From positions 1,660,369 through 1,724,368 of the forward strand of contig NZ_CP031320.1 in NCBI RefSeq assembly GCF_003355155.1: DNA of 64,000 nucleotides, written 5' to 3'. A model generated the notes under the pieces. It worked only from the letters and a program-made list of their open reading frames with translations. It ran no database searches and was not told the DNA's origin. Each line of letters begins with the position of its first letter. The first letter of the stretch is position 1. Source of the stretch: Streptomyces armeniacus. GTDB lineage: Bacteria; Actinomycetota; Actinomycetes; Streptomycetales; Streptomycetaceae. The translations under genes were made by a program, and so were the position numbers. Shown here piece by piece: positions 7,355 to 21,357 of this stretch.

Positions 7355-8032
7355 TCACTTCAGGTGCGCGACCACCGTGTCATCGGGGTTGAGGTGGGTG
7401 CGCAGGGTGTCGGCGGCGCGCTCGAAGTCGTGCTTGACCAGCGCGGCCAGCAGGCTGTGGTGCTCCCGCATGATGACGGGCAGGCGGTTGGGCCGGATGG
7501 TGATCGCGGACACGCCGATCCGCTGGTGCCGCGGCTGGAGGCTGCGGAACAGGTCGAGGAGCACGGAGTTGCCGGTCGCCGCCACGAAGCCGCAGTGGAA
7601 GCGGAAGTCGAACTTCGCGTGCTCGGCGATCGCCTCGCGGTCGCCGTTGCGGGACCGCTCCAGCAGGTCCGCGTCGCCCATGCGGTCCAGCAGCTCGGCC
7701 TGCTCCGGCGGAATCTCGATCTGCTTCTCGCACAGGATCCGGAAGCCGTGTATCTCCAGCACCTGCCGCATCTCGTACGTCTCGATCATCTCGCCGACGG
7801 TGACGCGGCGGACCTGGGCGCCGCGCCGAGGGGGCAGGTCGATGAACCCCTCCGCCGCCAGCCGGTGCAGGGCCTCGCGCACCGGCGTCCGCGACACCCC
7901 CGCCTCCTCCGAGAGGATCTTCTCCTCCAGAAACGCACCCTCCGGGTAGCGCCCCAGCAAGATGGCCTCACGGACCCACTCGTAGGCCCGTGCACGCGCC
8001 GAGTTGGCGCTTCCCCCCTGGTCGACTGACAC
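7355..8032 (-). CDS. GntR-family transcriptional regulator, FCD (FadR) subfamily
   Basis: A 225-residue regulator. An N-terminal winged helix (ARAYEWVREAILLGRYPEGAFL, then SRTPVREALHRLAAEGF) is followed by a helical FCD ligand-binding domain with the HAKFDFRFH and REHHSLLAAL metal-ligand histidines. The GTG at 8032 is chosen because GAGGGAG lies upstream and the HTH follows within 20 residues. The gene ends 21 bp from the importer ATPase stop (convergent) and is divergent from the aldolase gene. The shared 54-bp gap carries two TGTATAC boxes, so autoregulation and control of both flanking operons are likely. FCD proteins usually respond to small carboxylic acids. Confidence 0.92.
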   Translation of the reverse strand: MSVDQGGSANSARARAYEWVREAILLGRYPEGAFLEEKILSEEAGVSRTPVREALHRLAAEGFIDLPPRRGAQVRRVTVGEMIETYEMRQVLEIHGFRILCEKQIEIPPEQAELLDRMGDADLLERSRNGDREAIAEHAKFDFRFHCGFVAATGNSVLLDLFRSLQPRHQRIGVSAITIRPNRLPVIMREHHSLLAALVKHDFERAADTLRTHLNPDDTVVAHLK

Positions 8033-8053
8033 GCTTCTGCTCCCTCGACGATT

Positions 8054-8918: not shown

Positions 8919-9713
8919 ATGCTCGCAACGGTCGCCCAGTTCGCCGCCACCACCGACAAGTCCGCCAACCTGAAGACGGCCACCGGTCTGATCGCCACGG
9001 CCGCCGCCCAGGGCTCGGACCTGGTCGTTCTCCCGGAGAACGCCATGTACGCCAACCCCGACCTCACGGCCGAGACCTCCGGCCAGGCCGAGCCGCTCGA
9101 CGGGCCGTTCGCGTCGGCGATCGCCGCGGCCGCGAAGGAGCACTCCATCGCCGTGGTCGCCGGGATGACCGAGACGCCCGCCGACGGCTCGGGGAAGCCC
9201 AGCAACACCGTGCTCGCCGTGGACCGTACCGGCGGGCAGCTCGGCGTGTACCGCAAGGTCCACCTCTACGACGCCTTCGGCTACCGGGAGTCCGACCGTA
9301 TCGAGCCGCAGCCCGCGAAGGCCCTCACCTTCGTACTCGACGGCCTCACCTTCGGCGTCATGACCTGCTACGACCTGCGCTTCCCCGAGATGGCCCGCTT
9401 CCTGGTCGACGCCGGCGCCGAGGCCGTCCTCGTCCCGGCCGCGTGGGTCGTCGGCCCGGCCAAGGAGGACCACTGGACCACCCTCCTGCGGGCCCGGGCG
9501 ATCGAGAACACCGTGTACGTCCTCGGCTGCGGCCAGACCGGCCCCACGTGGAGCGGCCAGAGCAGCATCGTCGACCCCATGGGTCACATCACGGCGTCGG
9601 CCGGCGAGAACCCGGGCGTCGCGTCGGCGGTCCTCGACGCCTCGCGGGTGGCGGAGGTCCGGGCGAAGAACCCGAGCCTGGCGAACCGCCGTTTCACGGT
9701 GTCCTTCGGCTGA
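8919..9713 (+). CDS. carbon-nitrogen hydrolase (nitrilase superfamily amidase)
   Basis: A 264-residue member of the nitrilase superfamily. The catalytic triad is visible: Glu40 in VVLPENAMY, Lys113 in YRKVHLYDAF and Cys150 in MTCYDLRFPE. The length and motifs resemble the Nit2/omega-amidase and deaminated-glutathione-amidase branch, which hydrolyses amides of dicarboxylic acids through a thioester. The exact substrate cannot be read off. It lies downstream of the HpcH-type aldolase on the same strand. Amide hydrolysis here, ring opening by the creatininase and aldol cleavage could form one route. About 260 bp without a recognisable gene follow. Confidence 0.9.
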   Translation: MLATVAQFAATTDKSANLKTATGLIATAAAQGSDLVVLPENAMYANPDLTAETSGQAEPLDGPFASAIAAAAKEHSIAVVAGMTETPADGSGKPSNTVLAVDRTGGQLGVYRKVHLYDAFGYRESDRIEPQPAKALTFVLDGLTFGVMTCYDLRFPEMARFLVDAGAEAVLVPAAWVVGPAKEDHWTTLLRARAIENTVYVLGCGQTGPTWSGQSSIVDPMGHITASAGENPGVASAVLDASRVAEVRAKNPSLANRRFTVSFG

Positions 9714-9971: not shown

Positions 9972-10368
9972 ATGCACATCCAGATCGTCCTGTTCGACGG
10001 CTTCGACCCGCTCGATGTCATCGCTCCCTACGAGGTGCTGTACGCCGGCGGCTCGGCGTCGGACGGCGCGGTGACCGTCGAGTTGGTGACCGCGGAAGGC
10101 CCCCGTGAGGTGATCAGCGGCACCGGAGGACTGCCGCTGCGCGCCGCCGGCACCCTCGATCCGGAGCGCGCCGACCTGCTTCTGATCCCCGGCGCCTCCG
10201 GCCGCACGGGCGAACCCGGCGAGGTACCGGGAGACTCCGGTGAGGCCCCGGGAGACGGGGTGGGTGCCGGCGAGTGGAAGCAGGACGAGTTCATCCCGGT
10301 GCTGCTGGGCCGCACGCTGACCACCGAGCTGCCCGCGTTCCTCAAGCGGGCGATGGACGACCCGGACC
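9972..10368 (+). pseudogene. DJ-1/PfpI-family protein, 5' half only, fused to an aminotransferase remnant
   Basis: From ATG 9972 the frame reads as the N-terminal half of a DJ-1/PfpI protein (IQIVLFDGFDPLDVIAPYEVL, then LLLIPGASG, then DEFIPVLLGRTLTTELPAFL). About residue 132 (AMDDPD) it stops resembling DJ-1. The nucleophile-elbow cysteine segment that should come next is absent. Without a break in frame the sequence turns into a glutamate-1-semialdehyde aminotransferase-like protein. A deletion joining two genes in frame is the simplest reading. A spacer rich in Gly, Glu and Pro (GEPGEVPGDSGEAPGD) sits inside the DJ-1 part. Function is not expected. Confidence 0.7.
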
Positions 10369-11139
10369 TGCTCACCCGGTACCGCGACGAGGTCGCCTGC
10401 CTGATCCTCGAACCCGCCGAACACACCGAGCCTTCCCCTGGCTCATCACTCCGTTCGAGCGGGGGAGACCCCCACCCCGGGCTACCTCGCCGGGCTGCGC
10501 GAACTGGCCGACCGGCATGGCTGCGTACTGGTCTTCGACGAGATGATCACCGGCCTCCGCTGGTCCGAGGCGGGCGCCCAGGGCCTGTACGGCGTCGTCC
10601 CCGACCTCTCCACGTTCGGCAAGGCGCTGGGCAACGGGTTCGCCGTCTCCGCGCTGGCCGGGCGCCGCGAGCTGATGGAGCGGGGCGGGCTGCGGCACCC
10701 CGGCGAGCGGGTGTTCCTGCTGTCCACCACGCACGGCGCCGAAACGCACTCGCTGGCCGCCGCGATGGCCGTGCTCACCACGTACGTCGAGGAGGGCGTC
10801 ACCGCGCAACTGCACGCCCTCGGCGAGCGGTTGGCCGCCGGTGTGCGCGAAGCCGCGGACGGCATGGGCGTCGGCGACCACATCGTGCTCCGGGGCCGGG
10901 CCAGCAACCTGGTCTACGCCACCCTCGACGAGAACGGGCAGCCGTCGCAGCGGTACCGCACCCTGTTCCTGCGCCGGCTCCTCGCGGGCGGTGTGCTGGC
11001 CCCGTCGTTCGTGGTGAGCAGCGCGCTCGACGACGCGGACATCGACCGCACCGTCGAGGTGGTGGCCCAGGCGTGTGCGGTGTACCGGAAGGCGCTGGAC
11101 GCCGCCGACCCCGCCCCTGGCTGGGCGGCCGGCCGGTGA
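10369..11139 (+). pseudogene. glutamate-1-semialdehyde aminotransferase-like remnant, frameshifted
   Basis: Two frames together encode the C-terminal part of a class III PLP aminotransferase. The first segment is LLTRYRDEVACLILEPAEHTEP, shared with the DJ-1 frame. After a 40-bp insertion at about 10434-10473 the rest continues in the next frame: TPGYLAGLRELADRHG, LVFDEMITGLRW, and STFGKALGNGF with the PLP-binding lysine, to the stop at 11137-11139. The N-terminal half of the enzyme is missing and the frame is broken, so this is a pseudogene. The part from 10543 could be read as a short open frame but would lack the start of the fold. Confidence 0.75.
10434..10473. repeat. 40-bp insertion in the aminotransferase remnant
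   Basis: Removing these 40 bases restores the aminotransferase reading frame (HTEP joined to TPGYLAG). The segment runs from tcccctggctc to gcgggggagaccccc. Its C-rich and G-rich ends are partly complementary, and it resembles the GGGGG/CCCCC-flanked short interspersed repeats common between Streptomyces genes. Insertion boundaries can slide by one or two bases within the flanking C runs. No second copy was seen in this window. Confidence 0.55.
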
Positions 11140-11172: not shown

Positions 11173-11586
11173 TCAGCGGCGTTTCCGCCGACGGGCGTCG
11201 GCTGTCCGGTCAACCAGCCACGCGGTCGCCGGCACCACCGCCAGCGCGGTGCACCAGCCGCCGAGGACGTCGGTCGGGTAGTGCGCGCCCAGGGCGACCT
11301 GTGCCCAGCCCATGGCGGCACCGGCGGCCGACGCCGCGGCGAGCACGAGCAGCGTCGCCGCACCCACGGGCTCCCCCAGGAAGTCAGTGGCGAGAGCGGC
11401 GTTCCGCCACGGTGACCGCACTTCGCCCGTCTCCGGCCGTAGCCACCGGTCCACCACGCCGGGCCTGCCGTGACCGGCGTGCAGGATCCCGACCACGCTC
11501 ACCACCAGCGCGGCGAGGACCGCGACCGGCCCGAGCCGGGCGCGCAGCGGCTGCGGCAGCACCGCGGACGCCGGACGCCCGGTCAC
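11173..11586 (-). pseudogene. PAP2-family phosphatase with internal deletion
   Basis: The frame encodes the N-terminus of a PAP2 (phosphatidic acid phosphatase type 2) membrane protein (VTGRPASAVLPQPL, a membrane segment near VLAALVVSVVGIL, NAALATDFLGEPVGAATLLV). It then jumps straight to the C-terminal motif 3 region, AQVALGAHYPTDVLGGW. PAP2 enzymes need KXXXXXXRP (motif 1) and PSGH (motif 2) before motif 3; neither is present. The protein is about 137 residues rather than about 200. An in-frame deletion of some 60-80 codons explains this. GTG at 11586 is the likely start. It lies next to another deletion-scarred gene. Confidence 0.65.
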
Positions 11587-11731
11587 GTGCCCGCCGCGTC
11601 CGGGCGACCCGCTCCGGCCAGGCGATCCAACGCGAGCCCCCCCGTCGTGTTCGGCCCGCCCCGAGAGGCCGCCGCACCGGGACCAGCCTCTCCTGGCGCC
11701 CGCACCAACAGTACGGTCCCGTCGGCGGGTC

Positions 11732-12802
11732 TCACCGCCCGGAGACGGCACCACCGTCGTCCTGGAAGGCGGGCATGACCTCCTTGACGAACAGTTCCAG
11801 GGACTCGCGCTTCTCCTCGTGGGACAGGCTCGTGTCGATCCAGAAGCTGTACTCGTCGATGCCGAGCTCCTCGTACGTGCGCAGCCGCTCGATGACCTCC
11901 GCCGGGGTGCCGATCACCGCGGTCCTGTGCAGCGACTCGGGCTCGAACTCGGGGCGCCCCTCGAACTTCGACTCGGGGCTGGGGTCGAGGAATCCGTTCA
12001 CCGGGGTGGTCTTGTTGCCGAACCAGGCGTCGAACGTCCGGTAGTAGCGGTTGACCGCCTCCGCCGCCGGGCGCCAGCCTTCGGGCTCGTCAGGGGAGTG
12101 CACGTGGGTGTGCCGCAGCACCATGAGCTCGGGGCGGCGCACCTCGGGGTGGTTCGCCACCGCGGTGTCGAACTTCCGCTTGAGGTCGACGACTTCCTCG
12201 TCTCCCTTCATGAGCGGCGTGACCATGACGTTGCATCCCTGGGCCACGGCGAAGTCGTGGGAGTCGGGGTCGCGGGCGGCGATCCACATGGGCGGCGTGG
12301 GCCGCTGTACGGGCTTGGGCACGCTGGTCGACGTCGGGAACTGCCAGATCTCCCCGTCGTGGGCGTAGTCGCCCTGCCAGAGCTCCCGGACGGCGGGCAC
12401 GAGTTCACGCAGGTGCCTGCCGCCGTCGCGGGCGGAGACCCCGCCCGCCAGGCGGTCGAACTCGAACTGGTGGGCTCCGCGGGCGAGTCCGACCTCCATC
12501 CGGCCGTTGCTGATGACGTCGAGCAGCGCGCATTCACCGGCGACCCGGATCGGGTTCCAGAACGGGGCGACGATCGTTCCGGCGCCCAGGCGGATGGTCG
12601 AGGTCCTCGCGGCCAGGTACGCGAGCAGCGGCATGGGGCTGGGGGAGATGGTGTACTCCATCGCGTGGTGCTCACCGATCCACACGGTGCCGAACCCGCC
12701 CGCCTCCGCGGTCAGGACCAGTTCGGAGAGCTCCTCGAACAGCTGCCGGTGGCCGACCTCCTCGTCCCAGCGCTCCATGTGCACGAACAACGAAAACCTC
12801 AT
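11732..12802 (-). CDS. luciferase-like (LLM class) flavin-dependent monooxygenase
   Basis: A 356-residue bacterial-luciferase-like monooxygenase. Features are MRFSLFVHMERWD, the IGEHHAMEY motif, IRLGAGTIVAPFWNPIRVAGECALLDVISNGRMEVGL split by the expected loops, and PTPPMWIAARDP. Such enzymes use reduced flavin delivered by a separate reductase. The matching HpaC-type reductase is encoded at 18788-19291 in the divergent operon. The ATG at 12802 overlaps the tautomerase stop (ATGA), so it is the last gene of a six-gene operon. In the context of a betaine transporter, an aldehyde dehydrogenase and an amide-type hydrolase, a role in oxidative ring opening resembling TgnB of trigonelline degradation is plausible but unproven. 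Confidence 0.88.
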   Translation of the reverse strand: MRFSLFVHMERWDEEVGHRQLFEELSELVLTAEAGGFGTVWIGEHHAMEYTISPSPMPLLAYLAARTSTIRLGAGTIVAPFWNPIRVAGECALLDVISNGRMEVGLARGAHQFEFDRLAGGVSARDGGRHLRELVPAVRELWQGDYAHDGEIWQFPTSTSVPKPVQRPTPPMWIAARDPDSHDFAVAQGCNVMVTPLMKGDEEVVDLKRKFDTAVANHPEVRRPELMVLRHTHVHSPDEPEGWRPAAEAVNRYYRTFDAWFGNKTTPVNGFLDPSPESKFEGRPEFEPESLHRTAVIGTPAEVIERLRTYEELGIDEYSFWIDTSLSHEEKRESLELFVKEVMPAFQDDGGAVSGR

Positions 12803-13074
12803 GACTGCTCCTCGTCTGCTGCTGGGGTGACCGGGCGTGGCGCGGCGGCCTGACCGCCGTGCTCTCCGGTACGGCCCGTCTCGGCCGCGTCCCTCTCGGT
12901 GACGGTGAGGTCACCGGTCGCCCAGAGGGCCCGGCGGACCTCGTGGACGACGACACGGATGTACTCGGGCCGGGTGTCCGTGGTGCGCAGGACCGCGGCG
13001 TGCACTTCGTGCATCAGGTTCCGCAGCTGCGCCGGGGTGCGGCCCTCGGCGATCGTGATCGAGACCTGTGGCAT
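12799..13074 (-). CDS. 4-oxalocrotonate tautomerase-family protein
   Basis: A 91-residue protein beginning MPQVSITIAEGRTPAQLRNL. Pro at position 2 becomes the catalytic N-terminal proline after Met removal, as in 4-oxalocrotonate tautomerase and related enzymes. RVVVHEV is the second conserved strand. Residues 1-60 are the compact tautomerase domain. The last 30 residues are a low-complexity hydrophilic tail. Its stop overlaps the monooxygenase start and it begins one base after the aldehyde dehydrogenase stop. It would convert an enol or unsaturated oxo-acid intermediate in the same pathway. Confidence 0.85.
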   Translation of the reverse strand: MPQVSITIAEGRTPAQLRNLMHEVHAAVLRTTDTRPEYIRVVVHEVRRALWATGDLTVTERDAAETGRTGEHGGQAAAPRPVTPAADEEQS

Positions 13075-13075
13075 G

Positions 13076-14563
13076 TCAGCTCCGCATGGTGAACGGGTCG
13101 GCCACGGGTTCTTCGCCGGTGTTGATCCAGACGCTCTTGAGCCGCGTGTACTCCTTGATCGTCTCGGTGCCGTGCTCGACGCCGGCTCCGCTCGACTTGA
13201 AGCCCTGCCGCGGCGACATCGGAGACATCGCGCGGTAGGTGTTCACCCACACCGTCCCGGCGTCCAGCCGCGCCGCCATACGGTGCGCCCGCGCGAGGTT
13301 CTGCGTCCAGACGCCGGCCGCGAGACCGTACTCGGTGTCGTTGGCCAGCCGGACGGCCTCCTCCTCGGTGTCGAACGGCATGACCGCCAGTACGGGGCCG
13401 AAGATCTCCTCGCGTACGACGCGCATGCTGTTGTCGACGTCCACGAGGATGGTGGGCTCGTAGAAGAAGCCGCCGAGACCGCCGTCGGTGGAGCGCCCGC
13501 CGGTGAGCACCCGCGCGCCTTCGCCGCGGCCGATGTCGACGTACGCGGCGACCTTGTCCCGCTGGCCCTCGAAGGCCAGCGGCCCGAGCTCGGTCTTCTC
13601 GTCGAGGGGGTCGCCGATCCGGATGCTCCGGGCGCGGTCGGAGACGCGCTCCAGGAGGTCGTCGTAGACGGAGCGGTGCGCGAACACCCGGCTGCCGGCG
13701 ATGCAGGTCTGGCCGGCGGCGGCGAAGATGCCGGCTACGACGCCCATCGCGGCGTTCGCGATGTCGGCGTCCTCGAACACGATGTTGGGCGACTTGCCGC
13801 CGAGTTCGAGGGTCGAGCCGACGAACCGGCCCGCCGTCGCCGCGGCGATGCGCGACCCGGTGGCGGTGCTCCCGGTGAACGAGATCTTCGCCAGCGCCCG
13901 GTGGTCGACCAGCGCCTGCCCGGCCTCGCCGCCGAACCCGGTGACGACGTTCACCGCACCCGGCGGGAACCCTGCCTCGAGCGCCAGCTCGGCGAGCCTG
14001 AGGACCGAGGCCGAGGTGTGCTCCGAGGGCTTGATCACGACGGTGTTGCCGGCGCACAGCGCGGGGGCGAGCTTGCTGCTGGTGAGCGTCAGCGGAGAGT
14101 TCCAGGGAGTGATCGCGCCGACGACGCCGAGCGGTTCGCGGGCCGTGTAGTTGAGCACCCGGCGGTCGGAGGTGGGGACGACATCTCCGTGGATCTTGTC
14201 CGCGAGCCCGGCGTAGTAGTGGTAGTACTCCGGCAGCGTGGCCAGCTGCCCGCGCATCTCGCGCAGCAGCTTGCCGTTGTCCTCCGTTTCCATCCGGGCG
14301 AGCTCTTCGGCGTTCTCGGCGATCAGGTCACCGAGGCGCCGCAGCAGACGCCCGCGCCGTGTCTGGCTGAGGTCGCGCCAGCGCGCATCCTCGTACGCTC
14401 CCCGCGCGGCGGTCACGGCCCGGTCGATGTCGGCGGCGCCTCCGCGTGCCGCCCGGTAGAGCACGCGGCGGGTGGCCGGGTTGGTGCTCTCGAAGTACTC
14501 GCCCGAGGCGGGCTCCACCCGGGCCCCGCCGATGAAGTGCTGCGACGTGGTGAGTTCAGACAT
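13076..14563 (-). CDS. NAD(P)-dependent aldehyde dehydrogenase
   Basis: A 495-residue aldehyde dehydrogenase of full length. It has the oxyanion Asn motif TPWNSPLTLTSSKLAPAL, the cofactor loop SFTGSTATG, the catalytic Glu in LELGGKSPN, the catalytic Cys in AAGQTCIAGSR, and EEIFGPVLAVMPF. It resembles the betaine-aldehyde and 2-hydroxymuconic-semialdehyde groups. The TgnC lactol/aldehyde dehydrogenase of trigonelline degradation belongs to the same broad family. Its 5' end overlaps the alpha/beta hydrolase gene by 8 bp. It would oxidise the aldehyde released by ring cleavage to an acid. Confidence 0.94.
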   Translation of the reverse strand: MSELTTSQHFIGGARVEPASGEYFESTNPATRRVLYRAARGGAADIDRAVTAARGAYEDARWRDLSQTRRGRLLRRLGDLIAENAEELARMETEDNGKLLREMRGQLATLPEYYHYYAGLADKIHGDVVPTSDRRVLNYTAREPLGVVGAITPWNSPLTLTSSKLAPALCAGNTVVIKPSEHTSASVLRLAELALEAGFPPGAVNVVTGFGGEAGQALVDHRALAKISFTGSTATGSRIAAATAGRFVGSTLELGGKSPNIVFEDADIANAAMGVVAGIFAAAGQTCIAGSRVFAHRSVYDDLLERVSDRARSIRIGDPLDEKTELGPLAFEGQRDKVAAYVDIGRGEGARVLTGGRSTDGGLGGFFYEPTILVDVDNSMRVVREEIFGPVLAVMPFDTEEEAVRLANDTEYGLAAGVWTQNLARAHRMAARLDAGTVWVNTYRAMSPMSPRQGFKSSGAGVEHGTETIKEYTRLKSVWINTGEEPVADPFTMRS

Positions 14564-15296
14564 GTGCGGACTCTCCGATGAAGGTCGTGAGGGAGTCGGC
14601 GAGCGCCTCGGGACGCTCGACGGGCAGCATGTGACGTGCGGTGGGGACGATCACCGCGCGGCAGTCCGGCAGAGCCGCTGCCAGCCGGCGGGTCATCTCG
14701 GGCGTGGAACCCGTGTCGTTCTCACCCGTGACCGCCAGCGCGCGTACGGCGATCGTGCCCAGCGCCGGCCCGAGTTCGGCATCCGCCGTGGCGAACACGC
14801 GGTAGCAGCGGAGGAAGGACCCGACGTCGTTGGCCCGCAGTGTGGCCTCGGTGCGGCTGACCCAGCGGGGGTCGACGTCCGTTCCGGCGTACCAGCGGTC
14901 GAGGGACGCGGCGGCGCTCGCCGGGAAGTCGGCCTCGGCGGAGCGCAGCCGGGCGAGGACGGACGCCCGCTCCTCGGCCGTCCGCTCGCATACGGAGCTG
15001 ACCGAGGTCAGCGTGGCCACCAGGCCGGGCCGGTACAGCGCGAGATGCTGGGCGACGAGCGCGCCGAGCGAGAAGCCGACGAGGTGCGAGCCCGCCGGAA
15101 TCCCGCCGGCGACCCCGTCGGCCAGGTCGGCGAGTGTCACCCCGTCGCCTGCCGGGGGCCGGGCGCCGTGGCCGGGCAGGTCGGGGGTGATCACGGTGAA
15201 CCGGTCGGCCAGCAGCGCGGCCGCGGGCTCCCACATGGTGTGGTCGAGCCCCACGCCGTGCAGCAGCACGATCGTCGGCTTGCCCAGGAGCGCCAT
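14556..15296 (-). CDS. alpha/beta-hydrolase
   Basis: A 246-residue alpha/beta-hydrolase. The oxyanion motif LLHGVGLD, PDLPGHG, the nucleophile elbow GFSLGA (Ser about position 95), and a C-terminal His in TARHMLPVERPEAL are visible. The small size and the pathway setting resemble the hydrolases that cleave (acetamido- or N-methylformamido-)methylene-succinates in vitamin B6 and trigonelline breakdown. Simple esterase or lactonase activity cannot be excluded. It lies 6 bp from the downstream end of the PF06684 gene and overlaps the aldehyde dehydrogenase start. Confidence 0.88.
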   Translation of the reverse strand: MALLGKPTIVLLHGVGLDHTMWEPAAALLADRFTVITPDLPGHGARPPAGDGVTLADLADGVAGGIPAGSHLVGFSLGALVAQHLALYRPGLVATLTSVSSVCERTAEERASVLARLRSAEADFPASAAASLDRWYAGTDVDPRWVSRTEATLRANDVGSFLRCYRVFATADAELGPALGTIAVRALAVTGENDTGSTPEMTRRLAAALPDCRAVIVPTARHMLPVERPEALADSLTTFIGESAHV

Positions 15297-15302
15297 GAGC
15301 GC

Positions 15303-15854
15303 CTACCGCTCGGTCGAGAGCGGCGCGAGACGCTGCTGAGGGCGTCCCTGGGCGGCGGCGGCGAGCGCGATGACGATCTCGCCGGGGTGGGGGGCGTCGG
15401 AGATCCGGACCTCGGTCGTCTGGTGGTGCGAGCGGACCGTGGCGTCGGTGATGTGCTTGAGGGGGATGTCGAACACCGTGCCGGCGGCTCCGCGCTTCTC
15501 GACGGCCGGCAGCAGGGTGGTGGCGTTGGCCGCCTTGCGGAAGTGGTCGCCGAACTGGAGCGTGTGAATGAGCGCCGAGCCGTGCTCGATCTCGCCGTCG
15601 AGGCCGACGACGGCCGCCTTGCCGTAGGCCTCGGCGGGAGCATCGAGGGCGTCGAGCACCGCCGGGGCCAGCACCGCGCCGATGTCGGAGGCGTTGGCGG
15701 CGATTCCGGGGGCGAGATCGTCGACGAAGCCCTGGCCCGCCCACGGGTTCTCGATCACTGCCGCGACGACGGCGATCCGGGCCGCGGGGGTGACCTGGCG
15801 GCCGCCTTCCGTACGGATCTCCTCGACGGTGGTCACGATCTTACGGATGTTCAT
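15303..15854 (-). CDS. PF06684 (amino acid synthesis) family protein, copy 1
   Basis: A 183-residue protein of the PF06684 (AA_synth, DUF1185) family. Conserved stretches are RKIVTTVEEI at the N-terminus, VVAAVIENPWAGQGFVDDL, EAYGKAAVVGLDGEIEHGSALIHT, FGDHFRKA, and RSHHQTTEVRISDAPHPGEIVIA. Despite the family name, no enzymatic activity is firmly established for most members. It overlaps its paralogue upstream by 4 bp (ATGA), so the two are probably made together and may form a heteromer. The two share the same motif order but only moderate identity. Confidence 0.85.
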   Translation of the reverse strand: MNIRKIVTTVEEIRTEGGRQVTPAARIAVVAAVIENPWAGQGFVDDLAPGIAANASDIGAVLAPAVLDALDAPAEAYGKAAVVGLDGEIEHGSALIHTLQFGDHFRKAANATTLLPAVEKRGAAGTVFDIPLKHITDATVRSHHQTTEVRISDAPHPGEIVIALAAAAQGRPQQRLAPLSTER

Positions 15855-16480
15855 GACGGGACTTCCTCCAGGGTTTCTGCGGTGACGGCGGGATCGGTCT
15901 CGCGGTCCCCGATACGGGGGTGCGGGCGCGGCCCCGTGGAAGCGGCGGCGATGACGACGATCTCGTCCGCGCACGGGGCGTCGGGAACACGCGCGCTGAC
16001 GGTCTGGTAGTGGCTCCGCGTCGCGGCGTGCGTCTTGTGCCAGAGCGGGACGATGACGGTCTCGCCGGCTTCGGCACGCGTGTCGGCGAAACAGATGATG
16101 GATTCGCCCTGGAGGAACTCCCGGACGAGGTTGCCGAAGTACGGCGTGTGGATGAGGGCTCCTGCGTGCTCGATCTCGCCCGCGGTGCCGACGATCGCGG
16201 CCTTGCCGAAGGCCTCGATCTCCCCGACTCCGCCCAGGGCGCCGATGAGCCGGTCCGTGAGCAGCCGCGCGAGTGCCGGGGCGATCCGGCTCTGCTCCGC
16301 GTGAAGATCAGCTGACAGGCCGGCGTTCACCCAGGGGTTCCGGATGACGGCGGCGACGCTGGCACGCCGCGCGGGCCGTACGGGGGCCGTGCCCGCCTCG
16401 GTGAGGACGACGTCGCGGTAGAGCACGAGCTTGCGGAGGCCGATGCGTTCGTCAGGATGATCCACGGTGCGCTCTTGCAT
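15851..16480 (-). CDS. PF06684 (amino acid synthesis) family protein, copy 2
   Basis: A 209-residue paralogue of the downstream protein. The matching blocks are RKLVLYRDVVLTEAG, SVAAVIRNPWVNAGLSADL, EAFGKAAIVGTAGEIEHAGALIHTPYFGN, and RSHYQTVSARVPDAPCADEIVVIAA. It is the first gene of the minus-strand operon, with its ATG at 16480, and faces the BCCT transporter across a 244-bp divergent promoter region. The C-terminal 20 residues are unlike copy 1. The function is unknown. Adjacency to a ring-opening monooxygenase set suggests a role in handling a nitrogenous intermediate. Confidence 0.85.
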   Translation of the reverse strand: MQERTVDHPDERIGLRKLVLYRDVVLTEAGTAPVRPARRASVAAVIRNPWVNAGLSADLHAEQSRIAPALARLLTDRLIGALGGVGEIEAFGKAAIVGTAGEIEHAGALIHTPYFGNLVREFLQGESIICFADTRAEAGETVIVPLWHKTHAATRSHYQTVSARVPDAPCADEIVVIAAASTGPRPHPRIGDRETDPAVTAETLEEVPS

Positions 16481-16641
16481 GCCACGGAACGATAGGCATG
16501 TGTCTTCCGCATGGCAAGGGCATGGATCGAACGAGCCCGCCAGTGGACTGCAGTGACCTCGGCCTTTCTGTTATTCACGGCCATGACCTGTGTAAACAGT
16601 CGGTGCCGGAAGGCGGGTCTCGATCCGGTGGTGACGAACCC

Positions 16642-16700
16642 TTGACGCCTCAAACGTGACCTGCCTTACTGCTCCTTGTATGCCAACGCCACCGGTTGGC
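16642..16700 (+). promoter_or_regulatory. candidate promoter and inverted repeat ahead of the transporter operon
   Basis: TTGACG (16642-16647) is followed after 18 bp by TTACTG (16666-16671), a plausible but weak promoter. Downstream lies GCCAAC (16682-16687) and its inverted copy GTTGGC (16695-16700), 7 bp apart, before the AGGAG ribosome site at 16716. The inverted repeat could bind the GntR regulator of this locus. This is inference from position. Confidence 0.35.
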
Positions 16701-16724
16701 GGACCTCCGGACGCTAGGAGTTTC

Positions 16725-18380
16725 ATGTTCAGCCACCTTCGATCGGGTGCGGAGATGACGCCCGAGGCGCCGTCCGGGAGCGTTGACGAGAGCGCCGTTC
16801 AGGACAGCGGCGACCACCACCGTGTCGGCAGGCTCGGCTCCGTCTTCTGGGCCTCGCTCGGCATCTCCGCCCTCTTCGTCGCCTGGGCGGTGCTCTTCAA
16901 GGACAACCTGAACCGCGTCACGACCGCCTCCCTGGATTGGGTGACGGGCACGTTCGGCTGGACCTACCTCGTGGTCACGCTGGCCATCCTGGTCTTCCTG
17001 GTGTTCCTGGCCTTCAGCCCCGCCGGCGAGATCCGGCTCGGCAAGGACACGGACCGTCCCGAGTTCTCGACACCGACCTGGTTCGCCATGATCCTCAGCG
17101 CGGTCATGGGCATCGGCCTGGTCTCGTACGGTGTCGCCGAGCCGATCTCGCACCTCGCGGCGCCGCCGCACGGCCTCGCGGAGCCGAACACGCCGGAGGC
17201 GGCGGTGCGTGCCCTCCAGTACTCGTACTTCGACTGGGGCCTGCACGCCTGGGCCATCTTCGCGGTCTTCGGACTCGCGATCGCCTACTCGACGTACCGC
17301 AAGGGCCGCCGGACCCTCGTGAGCCAGCTGTTCGTGCCGCTGCTCGGCGAGCGTGTGAACGGGCCCGTCGGCAAGACGATCGACGTGCTCGCCGTGTTCG
17401 CGACGCTGTTCGGCACCACGACGTCCCTCGGACTCGGAGCGCTCCAAATCAACAACGGGCTCGGCACCTTGTTCGGGATCCCGGTCAACTCCGTGACGCA
17501 GGTGGTGATCATCGCCGCCGTCACGGCCGTCTTCACCGTCTCCGCCGTGACCGGCGTCAGCAGGGGCATCAAGTTCCTGAGCCAGGGAAGCTCACTACTC
17601 GCGGTCGCACTGTTCGTCTTCATGCTGGTCGTGGGTCCCGCCGTCTTCATCGCGAACCTGTACATCGAGTCCGTGGGCCGCTGGGCGACCGACTTCTTCC
17701 GGATGAGCCTGCAGGGCACCGCGTTCGGCGGTCTCGAATGGATGCAGCTCTGGACGTACTTCATGATGGCCTGGTGGGTCTCCTGGGGCGCCTTCGTCGG
17801 CGTCTTCCTCGCCCGTATCTCCCGCGGACGCACCATCCGCGGCTTCATCGCCGGTGTCCTGGTGGTGCCCAGCGTGGTGTTCTTCACCTGGTTCTCGGTC
17901 TTCGGCGGTACGGCGATCCACCTCGACCTGTTCCAGGACGGAGACATCGCCCGGCAGGCCGGGGCGGACATGAACAGCGCGTTCTTCGCGACCCTCGACC
18001 ACTTCCCGCTCGCCGGCGTCACGTCCGCGATCGCGATCGTCCTGGTCGTGATGTTCTTCGTCTCCGGCGCGGACGCCAACACCTACGTGCTGTCCATGAT
18101 GACCTCGGACGGACTGCTCACCCCGCGCCGTCCGGTGCTCGTCCTCTGGGGAGTCCTCACCGGAGTCACCGCCGTCGTGCTGTTGCTCGCCGGGGGACTG
18201 ACAGCCCTTCAGAACACCGTAATCGTCGCGTCCTTGCCCTTCCTCGTGATCATCGCCGGGCTGGCGGTGTCCTTCTGGAAGGAGCTCGACGCAGACCGAA
18301 AGGGGAAGACTGATGCCGCACACGGAAACCCGCCGCGCCCTGATCGAGAAGGTGTGGGCGGCGGCCTGGGGCCGGGGTGA
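16725..18380 (+). CDS. BCCT-family (betaine/carnitine/choline) transporter
   Basis: A 551-residue secondary transporter with about 12 membrane segments. The BCCT hallmarks are MGIGLVSYGVAEPI near the N-terminal third and WTYFMMAWWVSWGAFVGVFLARISRGRTIR in mid-protein. The tryptophan-rich segment forms the box that binds trimethylammonium or other quaternary-ammonium groups. The family moves betaine, carnitine, choline and similar zwitterions with Na+ or H+. The ATG at 16725 follows AGGAG; an open frame continues upstream but lacks a ribosome site. Its 3' end overlaps the next gene by 68 bp. Its presence indicates the pathway substrate carries a quaternary nitrogen and a carboxylate. Confidence 0.93.
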   Translation: MFSHLRSGAEMTPEAPSGSVDESAVQDSGDHHRVGRLGSVFWASLGISALFVAWAVLFKDNLNRVTTASLDWVTGTFGWTYLVVTLAILVFLVFLAFSPAGEIRLGKDTDRPEFSTPTWFAMILSAVMGIGLVSYGVAEPISHLAAPPHGLAEPNTPEAAVRALQYSYFDWGLHAWAIFAVFGLAIAYSTYRKGRRTLVSQLFVPLLGERVNGPVGKTIDVLAVFATLFGTTTSLGLGALQINNGLGTLFGIPVNSVTQVVIIAAVTAVFTVSAVTGVSRGIKFLSQGSSLLAVALFVFMLVVGPAVFIANLYIESVGRWATDFFRMSLQGTAFGGLEWMQLWTYFMMAWWVSWGAFVGVFLARISRGRTIRGFIAGVLVVPSVVFFTWFSVFGGTAIHLDLFQDGDIARQAGADMNSAFFATLDHFPLAGVTSAIAIVLVVMFFVSGADANTYVLSMMTSDGLLTPRRPVLVLWGVLTGVTAVVLLLAGGLTALQNTVIVASLPFLVIIAGLAVSFWKELDADRKGKTDAAHGNPPRPDREGVGGGLGPG

Positions 18381-18738
18381 GGTCGATGCCCTCGACTCAC
18401 TGCTGAGCCCATCCTACCTGCGCCACGGCGGTGACGGGCGGCCCCAGGGCCCCGATGCGCTGAAGGCCGCGATCGTCTCCATCCGGGAGGCGTTCCCCGA
18501 TCTGGTCACGACGATCGACGACATCGTGGTCGACGGCGACAGGGCCGCGATCCGCTGGCACAGCAGCGGAACCCACGAGCACTCCTTCCTCGGAGTCCCC
18601 GCCACGAGGCGGCAAGTCGACGTCAGCGGAGCCACGTTCGCCCGGTTCGAGGGGGAACGCGTCGTCGAGGAGTACGTGACCTGGGACCCCCGGGCCCTGC
18701 TCTCGGCGCTCGGCATCATCCGCGTCGGACAGGACTGA
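18313..18738 (+). CDS. SnoaL-like / ester cyclase-family protein
   Basis: A 141-residue protein of the SnoaL-like (NTF2-fold) family. Typical features are SLLSPSYLRHGG near the start, a central AFPDLVTTIDDIVVDGDRAAIRWHSSGTHE block, and the end of the barrel at FEGERVVEEYVTWDPRALL. Members range from polyketide cyclases to uncharacterised catabolic proteins. The ATG at 18313 follows AGGGGAAG. The coding sequence overlaps the transporter C-terminus by 68 nt in another frame, an unusually long overlap. It may cyclise or isomerise a pathway intermediate; no direct evidence exists. Confidence 0.85.
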   Translation: MPHTETRRALIEKVWAAAWGRGEVDALDSLLSPSYLRHGGDGRPQGPDALKAAIVSIREAFPDLVTTIDDIVVDGDRAAIRWHSSGTHEHSFLGVPATRRQVDVSGATFARFEGERVVEEYVTWDPRALLSALGIIRVGQD

Positions 18739-18787
18739 CGGCCTGGCCGGGCAGACACGACGATCACCATCACCAAGGAGCACTTCC

Positions 18788-19291
18788 ATGACACCGCTGT
18801 CCACGGAGCCCAACGCCGACCTGATGAAAAGCGTCAACCGCCGGTTCGTCACCGGCGTCACGGTCGTGACCGCGATGGACGGGGACGTCCCCAGAGGGCT
18901 GGCTGTCAACGCGTTCTCGAGCATCTCGCTCGACCCGGCCATCGTGATGGTGTGCGTCCAGCGCACCTCATCGACGCACGACTGCCTGTTCCGGGAGGAT
19001 CATCTCGCCATCAACATCCTCTCCACGGAGCAGCTCGACGTGGTCGGCACCTTCGCGGGGAAGTCCGATGACAAGTTCAGGGAACTCGACTGGGAGCGCG
19101 GCCCGTTCGGGAGCCCGCTGATCGCGCGGAGCAGCGCGCAGATGGAGGCCGAGATCCGCGAGCGGCTCCAGGCCAGCACCCACACGGTGTTCATCTGCCG
19201 CGTGGTGCATGCCGCGGTCACCGACAACGTCCCGATGGTCTACGGCGCGGGTAAGTTCTTCGACGGCGGCGCGCTCACCCCCCTGGGGTGA
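18788..19291 (+). CDS. flavin reductase (HpaC-like)
   Basis: A 167-residue flavin reductase domain protein of the HpaC/flavoredoxin-like fold. Family motifs are RRFVTGVTVVTA, GLAVNAFSSISLDPAIVMVCVQ, SSTHDCLFREDHLAINIL, and FAGKSDDKFRELDW. It reduces FMN or FAD with NAD(P)H for a partner oxygenase. The luciferase-like monooxygenase at 11732-12802 in the divergent operon is the obvious partner, as in the two-component TgnA/TgnB system. The ATG at 18788 is preceded by AAGGAG. Confidence 0.92.
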   Translation: MTPLSTEPNADLMKSVNRRFVTGVTVVTAMDGDVPRGLAVNAFSSISLDPAIVMVCVQRTSSTHDCLFREDHLAINILSTEQLDVVGTFAGKSDDKFRELDWERGPFGSPLIARSSAQMEAEIRERLQASTHTVFICRVVHAAVTDNVPMVYGAGKFFDGGALTPLG

Positions 19292-19325
19292 CCCGTGCGC
19301 GGCCCGAACGACGGAGGAGGGCTCG

Positions 19326-20036
19326 GTGAATCGCGGCACAAGCGCGTCGGCGAAGGGGTCGATGCAGTCCAGGGTCATCGACGAGATGAGACGGCGCATC
19401 ATCAAGGGGGACATCAAGCCCGGGGCCCCGCTCTCGGAGCTCGCGCTCGCGGAGGAGTTCGGCGTCAGCCGCACGCCGGTCCGTGAGGCCCTGAAGCAGC
19501 TGCAGACCGAAGGACTGGTCGAGATCCGGCCGCGCGTGGGGACCTTCGTCACCGCTCCGTCCCGACGCGAGATCACCGAACTTTTCGAGATGAAGGAACT
19601 GCTGGAGGGAGCGGCCGCCCGCCTTCTCGCCCAGCGCGGCCGCGTCCCGGAGATCGACGGGCTGGAGCGGAATCTGCACGAGGCCGACGACGCAGTGGCG
19701 CGCGGTGACCAGGGACGCTACGCGGAACTCGTCCAGGAGTTCCACGACCTGCTCATCGCGGGCGCCGACAACAGCAAGCTGGAAGCCCACTACCGCATGC
19801 TGATGAACCAGCTCGCCTACTCCCGGCTGGTCAACACCTCACTGAGCCAGCCGGGACGCCCTCTTCAGTCGGACCGTGAGCACCACCTCGTCCTGGAGCT
19901 GATCCTGGAGAAGGACGGTTACAGCGCCGAGCAGGTCATGCGCGAACACGTCCGCGCCAGCCGGCGCGCGCTGCTGGCGGGCCTGCCCATCGGCACCCCG
20001 GCCTCGCCCCCGGCCACCGGTACGGAAGGAGCCTGA
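19326..20036 (+). CDS. GntR-family transcriptional regulator, FCD subfamily
   Basis: A 236-residue regulator. The N-terminal winged helix has SRVIDEMRRRIIKGDIKPG and SRTPVREALKQLQTEGL; the FCD domain follows with EFHDLLIAGADNSKLEAHY and SDREHHLVLELI. The GTG at 19326 is chosen because GGAGGAGG lies just upstream (19313-19320). The longer open frame overlaps the flavin reductase. It is the last gene of the transporter operon and probably controls both divergent operons in response to the substrate or a carboxylate product. It is not closely similar to the other GntR regulator at 7355-8032. Confidence 0.92.
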   Translation: MNRGTSASAKGSMQSRVIDEMRRRIIKGDIKPGAPLSELALAEEFGVSRTPVREALKQLQTEGLVEIRPRVGTFVTAPSRREITELFEMKELLEGAAARLLAQRGRVPEIDGLERNLHEADDAVARGDQGRYAELVQEFHDLLIAGADNSKLEAHYRMLMNQLAYSRLVNTSLSQPGRPLQSDREHHLVLELILEKDGYSAEQVMREHVRASRRALLAGLPIGTPASPPATGTEGA

Positions 20037-20163
20037 CCGCCCCTCAGCACCCGTACGCCGACGGGTCCGAGGTCCGGCCGACCGGCTGGTCACGGACTCG
20101 CATCCGGTGCCAGGCGGGCGGGGCGGCCCCCAGGGGCGGCTCCGTACGCGGGCATCGGCCACA

Positions 20164-21357
20164 ATGCCTGCCATGCGCGGATCAACCCGCCCCGCCCCGG
20201 GGCACGACGACCACTACCTGAACTGGCTCCGTACGGCACAGCCGCACCCCCCGGAGGAACAGGCGGAAGCGGTACGCCGTGCCGAGGAGCTGATGGCCTA
20301 CGTCCGCGAGACCTGGCTGCCGGAACCGAAGATGCAGGACGGCCCCCAGACCCGGTACTTCCGGGAACTGGACGCGCGCGCGGACCAACTCCCGCCGCCC
20401 CACCTGCCGTTCTTCTGGGACAACGTGAGCTACCTGCTCCACGGGTGGTTCGCCACCGGCGCCTGGCGCAGAGCACGCCAGGCCGAGGAGAAGCACGCGC
20501 TCCCCGTGGACGCCGACCACCTGATCGCCAACGCCCTGCTGCTGACCGGTGACTTCGGCCTGCGCGGGCCCGAGCAGGGGCGGCATCTGCGCTGGCTGCA
20601 GGAGGCGCTGCCGCCGGAGCGGGCCCACCGCGAAACGGCCCGGTTCATCGAGGCCACCGCCGCCAGGAACTCCCTCGAGCCGCCCGCGGACCTCGTCGGC
20701 CTGGTCCGTACCGCCACCGCGGCCGCCGGGCTAGGCGCCGAGGAGAACACCAGGCTGCTCGGCGTCATGGTGCGGGGCGAATGCGCCTGGCGGGCACACG
20801 AGACCCTGCTGCAGGACATCGCCGAGGTGTTCGCGGCGGCCCGGCCCGACGATGAGGTACGGCTGCGGCTGCTCTCCCTGTTCACCCGCACCCAGACGAA
20901 GACCAACGGGAAAGGCCTGCTCCAAGTCCTGCGGAAAAGCGGCGCCTTCGAGGCCATGGTCAGCGGCCGGCTGGTCCCCGAGGGCGGCTGCGGCGGCTGG
21001 CTCACCGGCTTCGTCGACCACTACTCGTACTACTGGACGCCCAACGTCAGCCTCAAGTCGCAGCCGCTGCCCGCCGAGCTGTACGCGCTGCTGCCGGAGC
21101 TGGCCGGGCCGCTGAAGGCCGAGGGGAAGCCCGTACGCATACACCACGAGAGGGGACGGCGCGGACGCCTGGACGGGCGGCTGGCCGACACCTGCCTGCA
21201 ACTCGGCATCAGCGTGCAGGACCCCGGCCCGGGCACCCTCCTGGACCTGCCGCCGCGCCGCAAGGACGACTACGCGCACCTGCGCGCGGACCCCGTGCTC
21301 GGGCCGCGTACGGCACGCGTCGTCTTCCGCCCGGGAGGCGGAGGGCTGCTGGTCTGA
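20164..21357 (+). CDS. hypothetical protein (actinobacterial, cytoplasmic)
   Basis: A 397-residue protein with no recognised domain. The N-terminus is rich in Ala, Glu and Arg (EEQAEAVRRAEELMAYVRETWLPE), helices continue through the middle (RHLRWLQEALPPERAHRETARFIEAT), and an aromatic patch GFVDHYSYYWTPNVSL precedes a C-terminal part with many Arg/Asp pairs. No signal peptide or membrane segment is seen. The ATG at 20164 (or 20173) starts it; neither has a strong ribosome site. Codon bias is typical of a real Streptomyces gene throughout. The role is not known. Confidence 0.75.
   Translation: MPAMRGSTRPAPGHDDHYLNWLRTAQPHPPEEQAEAVRRAEELMAYVRETWLPEPKMQDGPQTRYFRELDARADQLPPPHLPFFWDNVSYLLHGWFATGAWRRARQAEEKHALPVDADHLIANALLLTGDFGLRGPEQGRHLRWLQEALPPERAHRETARFIEATAARNSLEPPADLVGLVRTATAAAGLGAEENTRLLGVMVRGECAWRAHETLLQDIAEVFAAARPDDEVRLRLLSLFTRTQTKTNGKGLLQVLRKSGAFEAMVSGRLVPEGGCGGWLTGFVDHYSYYWTPNVSLKSQPLPAELYALLPELAGPLKAEGKPVRIHHERGRRGRLDGRLADTCLQLGISVQDPGPGTLLDLPPRRKDDYAHLRADPVLGPRTARVVFRPGGGGLLV

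Follow-up and report, generated by a model that had tools for sequence, protein, structure and literature searches.

What compound would Streptomyces armeniacus process with the ten-gene cluster at positions 11732-20036 of the 64,000-nucleotide stretch analyzed here (the window; positions 1,660,369-1,724,368 of a genome of 8.08 Mb in a single contig)? A preliminary description read this cluster as a degradation pathway for trigonelline or another N-heterocyclic betaine, and comparison with the tgn genes of Acinetobacter baylyi supports that proposal in its main line, through identities of 51% to TgnB, 46% (reciprocal) to TgnC, 38% to TgnA, and 27% (one-way) to TgnD. Our best reading, in which we infer the substrate, is that the locus is an actinobacterial variant of trigonelline catabolism. 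From its sequence and its relatives, we predict that the cluster brings trigonelline into the cell and likely opens the ring oxidatively, feeding central metabolism, a proposal that we regard as probable.

Kinship with the tgn enzymes

The tgn trigonelline pathway of A. baylyi was reportedly described by Perchat in 2018. In A. baylyi DSM 14961, the locus (L019) carries a GntR gene on the opposite strand and genes for a PF06684 protein, a hydrolase, a 310-residue reductase, a luciferase-like monooxygenase (LLM), an aldehyde dehydrogenase (ALDH), and an NCS1 carrier, after which come a porin-like gene, a succinate-semialdehyde-type dehydrogenase, and a CMD protein; by their positions, we take these genes to encode TgnF, D, A, B, C, and E. 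The window has homologues of TgnA, TgnB, TgnC, TgnD, and TgnF and, as in A. baylyi, a GntR gene opposite the enzyme-gene strand and a carrier gene within the cluster. It differs in that its oxygenase belongs to a separate clade, TgnF is represented twice, a tautomerase and a SnoaL-like protein are added, a BCCT carrier stands in for NCS1, the reductase is short, and the cluster has no TgnE or CMD gene.

The genes named in the preliminary description are all present, each over its Pfam cut-off, but the two units that it called facing stand back to back and diverge from 16481-16724. The minus-strand unit reads PF06684, PF06684, alpha/beta hydrolase, ALDH, tautomerase, and LLM, with neighbors overlapping by 4-8 bp or separated by 1-6 bp; the plus-strand unit reads BCCT, SnoaL, flavin reductase, and GntR/FCD. 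Every family assignment among the ten genes passes the Pfam cut-off, and none of the NCBIfam rows shown reaches an equivalog cut-off. The likely starts are 16725 for BCCT (AGGAG at 16716) and a GTG at 19326 for GntR; the second PF06684 gene is placed at 15303-15854. Because other Streptomyces genomes and other families of actinobacteria show much the same order of genes (LLM identities of 79-90%), the grouping is not due to chance.

The TgnB-like LLM (11732..12802, minus strand; PF00296, 3.5e-57), the predicted oxygenase component, aligns along its length with the TgnB-position protein at 50.6% identity. The A. baylyi genome has one full-length relative; the next match reaches 35% over about half of the query, and the remaining LLM matches reach at most 37% identity and extend over no more than ~72% of the query. 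Among the nearest LLM relatives is one from Streptomyces sp. AgN23 (91%), and in a spread list of plasmid matches full-length identity falls from 42% to 31%. Six of the 120 LLM relatives listed bear the JGI name "flavin-dependent trigonelline monooxygenase, oxygenase component", presumably given automatically. The TgnC-like ALDH (13076..14563, minus strand) is 45.8% identical to the TgnC-position protein, and the two are reciprocal best matches: that protein is the best of 17 A. baylyi matches of the window ALDH (next, 41%), and the window ALDH is the best of its 23 matches in the window's genome (next, 42%). Placement of these two enzymes in unrelated subfamilies was the outcome that the preliminary description would have counted against itself; what we find is 51% identity to the TgnB position and a reciprocal best match with the TgnC position.

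The TgnD-like alpha/beta hydrolase (14556..15296, minus strand) has the TgnD position as the best of its 6 A. baylyi matches (E-value, 9.9e-26; next, 1e-15) in a one-way comparison, and in alignment it has the TG..D..STPEM and RHM motifs in common with the TgnD-position protein. It also matches 3kxp, an alpha-(N-acetylaminomethylene)succinic acid hydrolase (E-value, 3.2e-11; rank seventh in the PDB list), as does the A. baylyi TgnD-position protein (6.5e-10); the substrate of 3kxp is a close analogue of that of TgnD. The flavin reductase (18788..19291, plus strand; PF01613, 1.1e-37) is 38% identical to TgnA residues 20-159 of 310, matching only the N-terminal reductase domain and lacking the C-terminal part.

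The preliminary description had counted the two PF06684 proteins as extra parts. They are instead TgnF homologues: homologue 1 (15851..16480, minus strand; PF06684, 1.6e-53) is 45% identical to TgnF, and homologue 2 (15303..15854, minus strand; PF06684, 3.1e-59 with the longer 5' end) is 43% identical. Because PMC7913881 describes TgnF as homologous to HcdD, a PF06684 protein, we assign PF06684 to the tgn family of parts. The two copies found in the window's genome both lie in the cluster, and none of 14 control genomes yielded a PF06684 match. PMC2954203 names Glu90, His93, and Arg176 of BB2672 as highly conserved; in alignments both window proteins retain the equivalents, if the chain is numbered one residue off from the protein, as we count it.

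Clades, gene content, and rival substrates

In phylogenetic trees, clade A comprises the window LLM, those of other actinobacteria, and some from the order of A. baylyi; clade B, the TgnB clade, comprises Acinetobacter, Burkholderiales, rhizobia, and Rhodobacterales; clade C comprises three loci. Clades A and B are separate and each is supported, at 100/100 (20 rows) and 99/99 (32 rows) in one tree and at 96/100 and 94/95 in the other. The branches of the outgroup rows were much too long, and one tree put one of these rows in the wrong place; because outgroup rooting failed, we claim no branching order for the three clades. Conservation of at least 95% within clade A and within clade B alike is seen in 116 columns, and in 103 of them the two clades have the same residue.

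Gene content was scored by tblastn, the core being the five TgnA, B, C, D, and F homologues within 9 kb. The core is present in 87/91 clade B loci, in all three clade C loci, and in 16 of the 20 clade A loci of the main survey; the misses are L134, at a contig end, and three loci of genomes in the A. baylyi order. Two of these three, L156 and L157, have their PF06684, hydrolase, ALDH, and CMD genes at distances of up to ~18 kb. Actinobacterial clade A amounts to 23 loci with the window included: 17 from the main survey (two from one genome), five from a further one, and L135, which is counted here yet was left out of the trees (extracted row of 22 residues; LLM alignment starting at residue 38). 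Two or more PF06684 genes are found in 21 of these 23 loci (not L134 or L135), a tautomerase in 20 (not L124, L177, or L135), and a BCCT gene in 17 (not L134, L135, L120, L121, L127, or L001); an NCS1 carrier replaces BCCT in L120, L121, L127, and L001. Among the 91 clade B loci, two PF06684 genes occur in 2, BCCT in 5, NCS1 in 32, and an ABC solute-binding protein in 34; BCCT genes also lie beside related LLMs of other lineages in L140 and L141. A more distant actinobacterial locus, L136 (LLM, 54%), has both PF06684 types, the hydrolase, and the ALDH, with no match to the tautomerase, reductase, or carrier.

Similar sets occur elsewhere. The clade B locus on pSymA of Sinorhizobium meliloti (L002) shares GntR, PF06684, hydrolase, reductase, LLM, and ALDH with the window, all on one strand; it differs in having an ABC importer, a NIPSNAP gene, a TgnE-like gene, and a single PF06684, and in lacking a tautomerase. 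Close by are noeA and noeB, from which an IS3-type transposase gene separates it, and it probably corresponds to the trigonelline (trc) region. In clade C, Mesorhizobium jarvisii (L009) and Agrobacterium fabrum (L010) have the same five-gene core as the window, although their LLMs are only 46% and 43% identical to it; L012 shares the core and falls in the same 43-46% range, and L010 adjoins a ProXWV betaine importer. As for flavin-related neighbors, riboflavin kinase and NUDIX genes flank the cluster in Arthrobacter (L001, 878-1827), and RibBA and NUDIX-like genes flank it in L156 (517-1623 and 2508-3071), from the order of A. baylyi. Genome G640 holds two cluster copies (L129 and L130) with identical LLM rows. 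They face opposite ways on an 11.54 Mb contig, each ~636 kb from one of its ends, an arrangement that very long terminal inverted repeats would produce.

Several observations weigh against a trigonelline pathway. The window oxygenase lies outside the TgnB clade, in the separate, supported clade A; one of the 13 clade-specific columns is a Ser for Asn at position 55, nine residues past a conserved His pair; and the JGI names of the listed LLM relatives are mostly of a generic alkanesulfonate type. Identity of the hydrolase to the TgnD position is only 27-28%, and because other alpha/beta hydrolases outrank 3kxp in the PDB lists of both the window and the A. baylyi proteins, we count that match as supportive and nothing stronger. 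A search of the window's genome placed no TgnE-like gene in the cluster, the nearest homologues (both 42%) being unlinked; since only 29/91 TgnB-clade loci show a TgnE-type dehydrogenase within 9 kb, however, its presence does not strictly define tgn clusters. A tautomerase counterpart is found in 0/91 TgnB-clade loci, the tautomerase gene of the Streptomyces locus L124 is internally deleted to a short in-frame remnant at 9238-9303, and the Streptomyces locus L177 shows none. Finally, the L135 LLM has none of the queried neighbors, and its genome has no PF06684 match.

These differences could mean that the same chemistry acts on another N-methylpyridinium or pyridine carboxylate (homarine, N-methylisonicotinate, or nicotinate), with the separate clade, the second TgnF, and the tautomerase reflecting a changed substrate. 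The supported split of the LLM clade, the Ser55 substitution close to the His pair, and the absence of the tautomerase and rarity of a second TgnF (2/91) in the TgnB clade all fit such a shift. Yet the clade A loci from the order of A. baylyi, whose three LLMs are 74-76% identical to that of the window, have the NCS1 carrier type of the A. baylyi cluster (54-56% identity), and two of them (L156 and L157) also its CMD protein (78%). Moreover, homarine was judged sterically unlikely for TgnA/TgnB in PMC8269262, and on that steric argument we set it aside as the first-choice substrate. We consider a changed substrate unlikely; because the oxygenase clade is distinct, a near analogue of trigonelline keeps some small likelihood.

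An uncharged N-heterocycle, handled by a pyridine-type pathway, seems quite improbable. The pyr pathway of Arthrobacter sp. 68b, with its PyrA, also combines two-component flavin-dependent ring cleavage with aldehyde oxidation and amide hydrolysis, and the Arthrobacter plasmid locus L001 has a riboflavin kinase and a succinate-semialdehyde dehydrogenase, which fits pyridine degraders; the pyr substrate, in contrast, is uncharged, whereas the presence of a BCCT carrier in 17/23 loci from actinobacteria suggests a charged quaternary amine, and the window hydrolase resembles a succinate-type amide hydrolase. Baeyer-Villiger and meta-cleavage pathways likewise use LLM enzymes, alpha/beta hydrolases, and 4-oxalocrotonate-type tautomerases, and the top NCBIfam and PDB scores of the hydrolase are to 3-oxoadipate enol-lactonase types and esterases, as a pathway of this kind, unrelated to betaines and with the BCCT gene present by chance, would predict; the reciprocal ALDH-TgnC match, the TgnF homologues, and the recurrent core make it very improbable.

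Added proteins, regulation, and a proposed route

The BCCT carrier (16725..18380, plus strand; PF02028, 3.3e-179), the predicted betaine importer, matches a trimethylamine transporter (E-value, 4e-105) and BetP (1.1e-102). Its frame overlaps the SnoaL gene by 68 nt (18313-18380) here, versus 14 nt in the 8 relatives printed, and its C terminus differs. The SnoaL-like protein (18313..18738, plus strand; PF07366, 2.2e-29) is a predicted partner of the reductase: because the two are a single polypeptide in Arthrobacter dokdonellae (L001) and adjoining separate genes in 20 of the 23 actinobacterial loci, we suggest that they are physical partners, and on the same grounds we set aside a role for SnoaL as a polyketide cyclase. 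The 4-oxalocrotonate-type tautomerase (12799..13074, minus strand; PF01361, 4.1e-10) has 4-oxalocrotonate tautomerase matches in the PDB; after Met removal it keeps the residues of that enzyme, with Pro1 and Arg11 in 16/16 aligned sequences and Arg39 in 15/16.

Expression of the two units may be coordinated by the GntR/FCD regulator (19326..20036, plus strand; PF00392 and PF07729), which is 26% identical to the GntR protein of L019 and is the predicted binder of two operator-like sites. The intergenic alignment covered 14 of the 16 Streptomyces loci of the main gene-content survey (L127 and L134 left out), with 60 bp of coding sequence on each side. It includes a predicted minus-strand promoter, TTGCCA-17-TATCGT (16489..16517), whose -10 block is conserved and whose -35 consensus across the loci is TTGACC as against TTGCCA in the window; the ATG of TgnF homologue 1 lies 8 nt downstream of this -10, and the transcript is possibly leaderless. 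The predicted plus-strand promoter of the BCCT unit, TTGACG-19-TACTGC (16642..16672), also falls in conserved blocks. The pattern TTGYATGSCA has just two matches in the 64 kb window, one per promoter: site 1, TTGCATGCCA (16475..16484), overlaps the TgnF homologue 1 start codon, and site 2, TTGTATGCCA (16676..16685), is just 3' of the predicted -10. Counted in the same 14-locus sequences from which it was derived, the pattern occurs at both promoters in 13 loci and at one in L120, with 27 of its 28 matches inside the cut intergenic stretches. Five further loci gave nine matches, each of them intergenic or across the beginning of the first PF06684 gene, with one each in L178 and L180; L001 and L181-L183 had none. 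Because site 1 overlaps the first PF06684 start codon, its conservation may be partly coding. We infer that the GntR protein binds both sites, and we propose that it would repress both units from these paired TTGYATGSCA sites until an inducer is present.

Modeled on the tgn pathway, the route would begin with import of N-methylnicotinate by the BCCT carrier. The flavin reductase, perhaps docked on the SnoaL protein, would provide reduced flavin mononucleotide with which the LLM oxygenase could cut the C5-C6 bond, giving an N-methylformamide aldehyde that the ALDH would oxidize to (N-methylformamido)methylene succinate. The hydrolase would cleave this product to methylamine, formate, and formylsuccinate; the tautomerase may then speed a keto-enol or decarboxylation step toward succinate semialdehyde, which an unlinked dehydrogenase would convert to succinate. 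The two TgnF homologues might form a mixed hexamer that aids the late steps.

Distribution and significance

At an E-value of 1e-60 or better, with the window's own genome excluded, LLM matches were found in 14 of 391 genomes of the genus (2/149 in a smaller draw), in 10/393 of the class (some of them the same genomes), in 2/395 of the phylum, and in 8/293 of the order of A. baylyi, A. baylyi itself included. Three of the 10 class-level matches (L181-L183) are closer to A. baylyi TgnB than to the window LLM; these loci, in actinobacterial genomes of 1.6-1.8 Mb, have a compact four-gene set of PF06684, hydrolase, LLM, and ALDH. The flanking genes at 8919-9713, 10543-11139, 11173-11754, and 20107-21357 were rejected as unit members, matching only the window's own stretch at an E-value threshold of 1e-15 among loci L001-L093 and L120-L144. 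Given the rarity of LLM matches and these four unmatched flanking genes, the cluster is accessory: it is rare, patchily distributed, and set in differing surroundings. Nearby, 9972-11139 looks like gene remnants, with a 397-residue open reading frame that has no Pfam match and, in another frame, a 198-residue one whose sole match is to the C-terminal portion of class-III aminotransferases. The gene at 8919-9713, with no match in the other loci compared, encodes a carbon-nitrogen hydrolase, and a second GntR-like gene (~7355-8035), 31% identical to the cluster's regulator, lies on the opposite strand from it.

The side-by-side paralogues would make the cluster an instructive place to study what PF06684 (TgnF) proteins do. 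As a tentative extension, which we think less likely than not, actinobacteria may have evolved their own N-methylpyridinium ring catabolism, with an oxygenase clade set apart from the others, two TgnF proteins paired in a hetero-oligomer, a 4-oxalocrotonate-type tautomerase acting on formylsuccinate decarboxylation or tautomerization, and SnoaL as a new docking partner of the reductase. Trigonelline is common in plants, for example, in legumes and coffee, and S. armeniacus is predicted to take up this plant compound and likely to break it open as food. To our knowledge, the trigonelline degraders described so far all belong to the Proteobacteria. If our prediction is true, this conserved and co-regulated counterpart would extend trigonelline degradation to Streptomyces and other actinobacteria.

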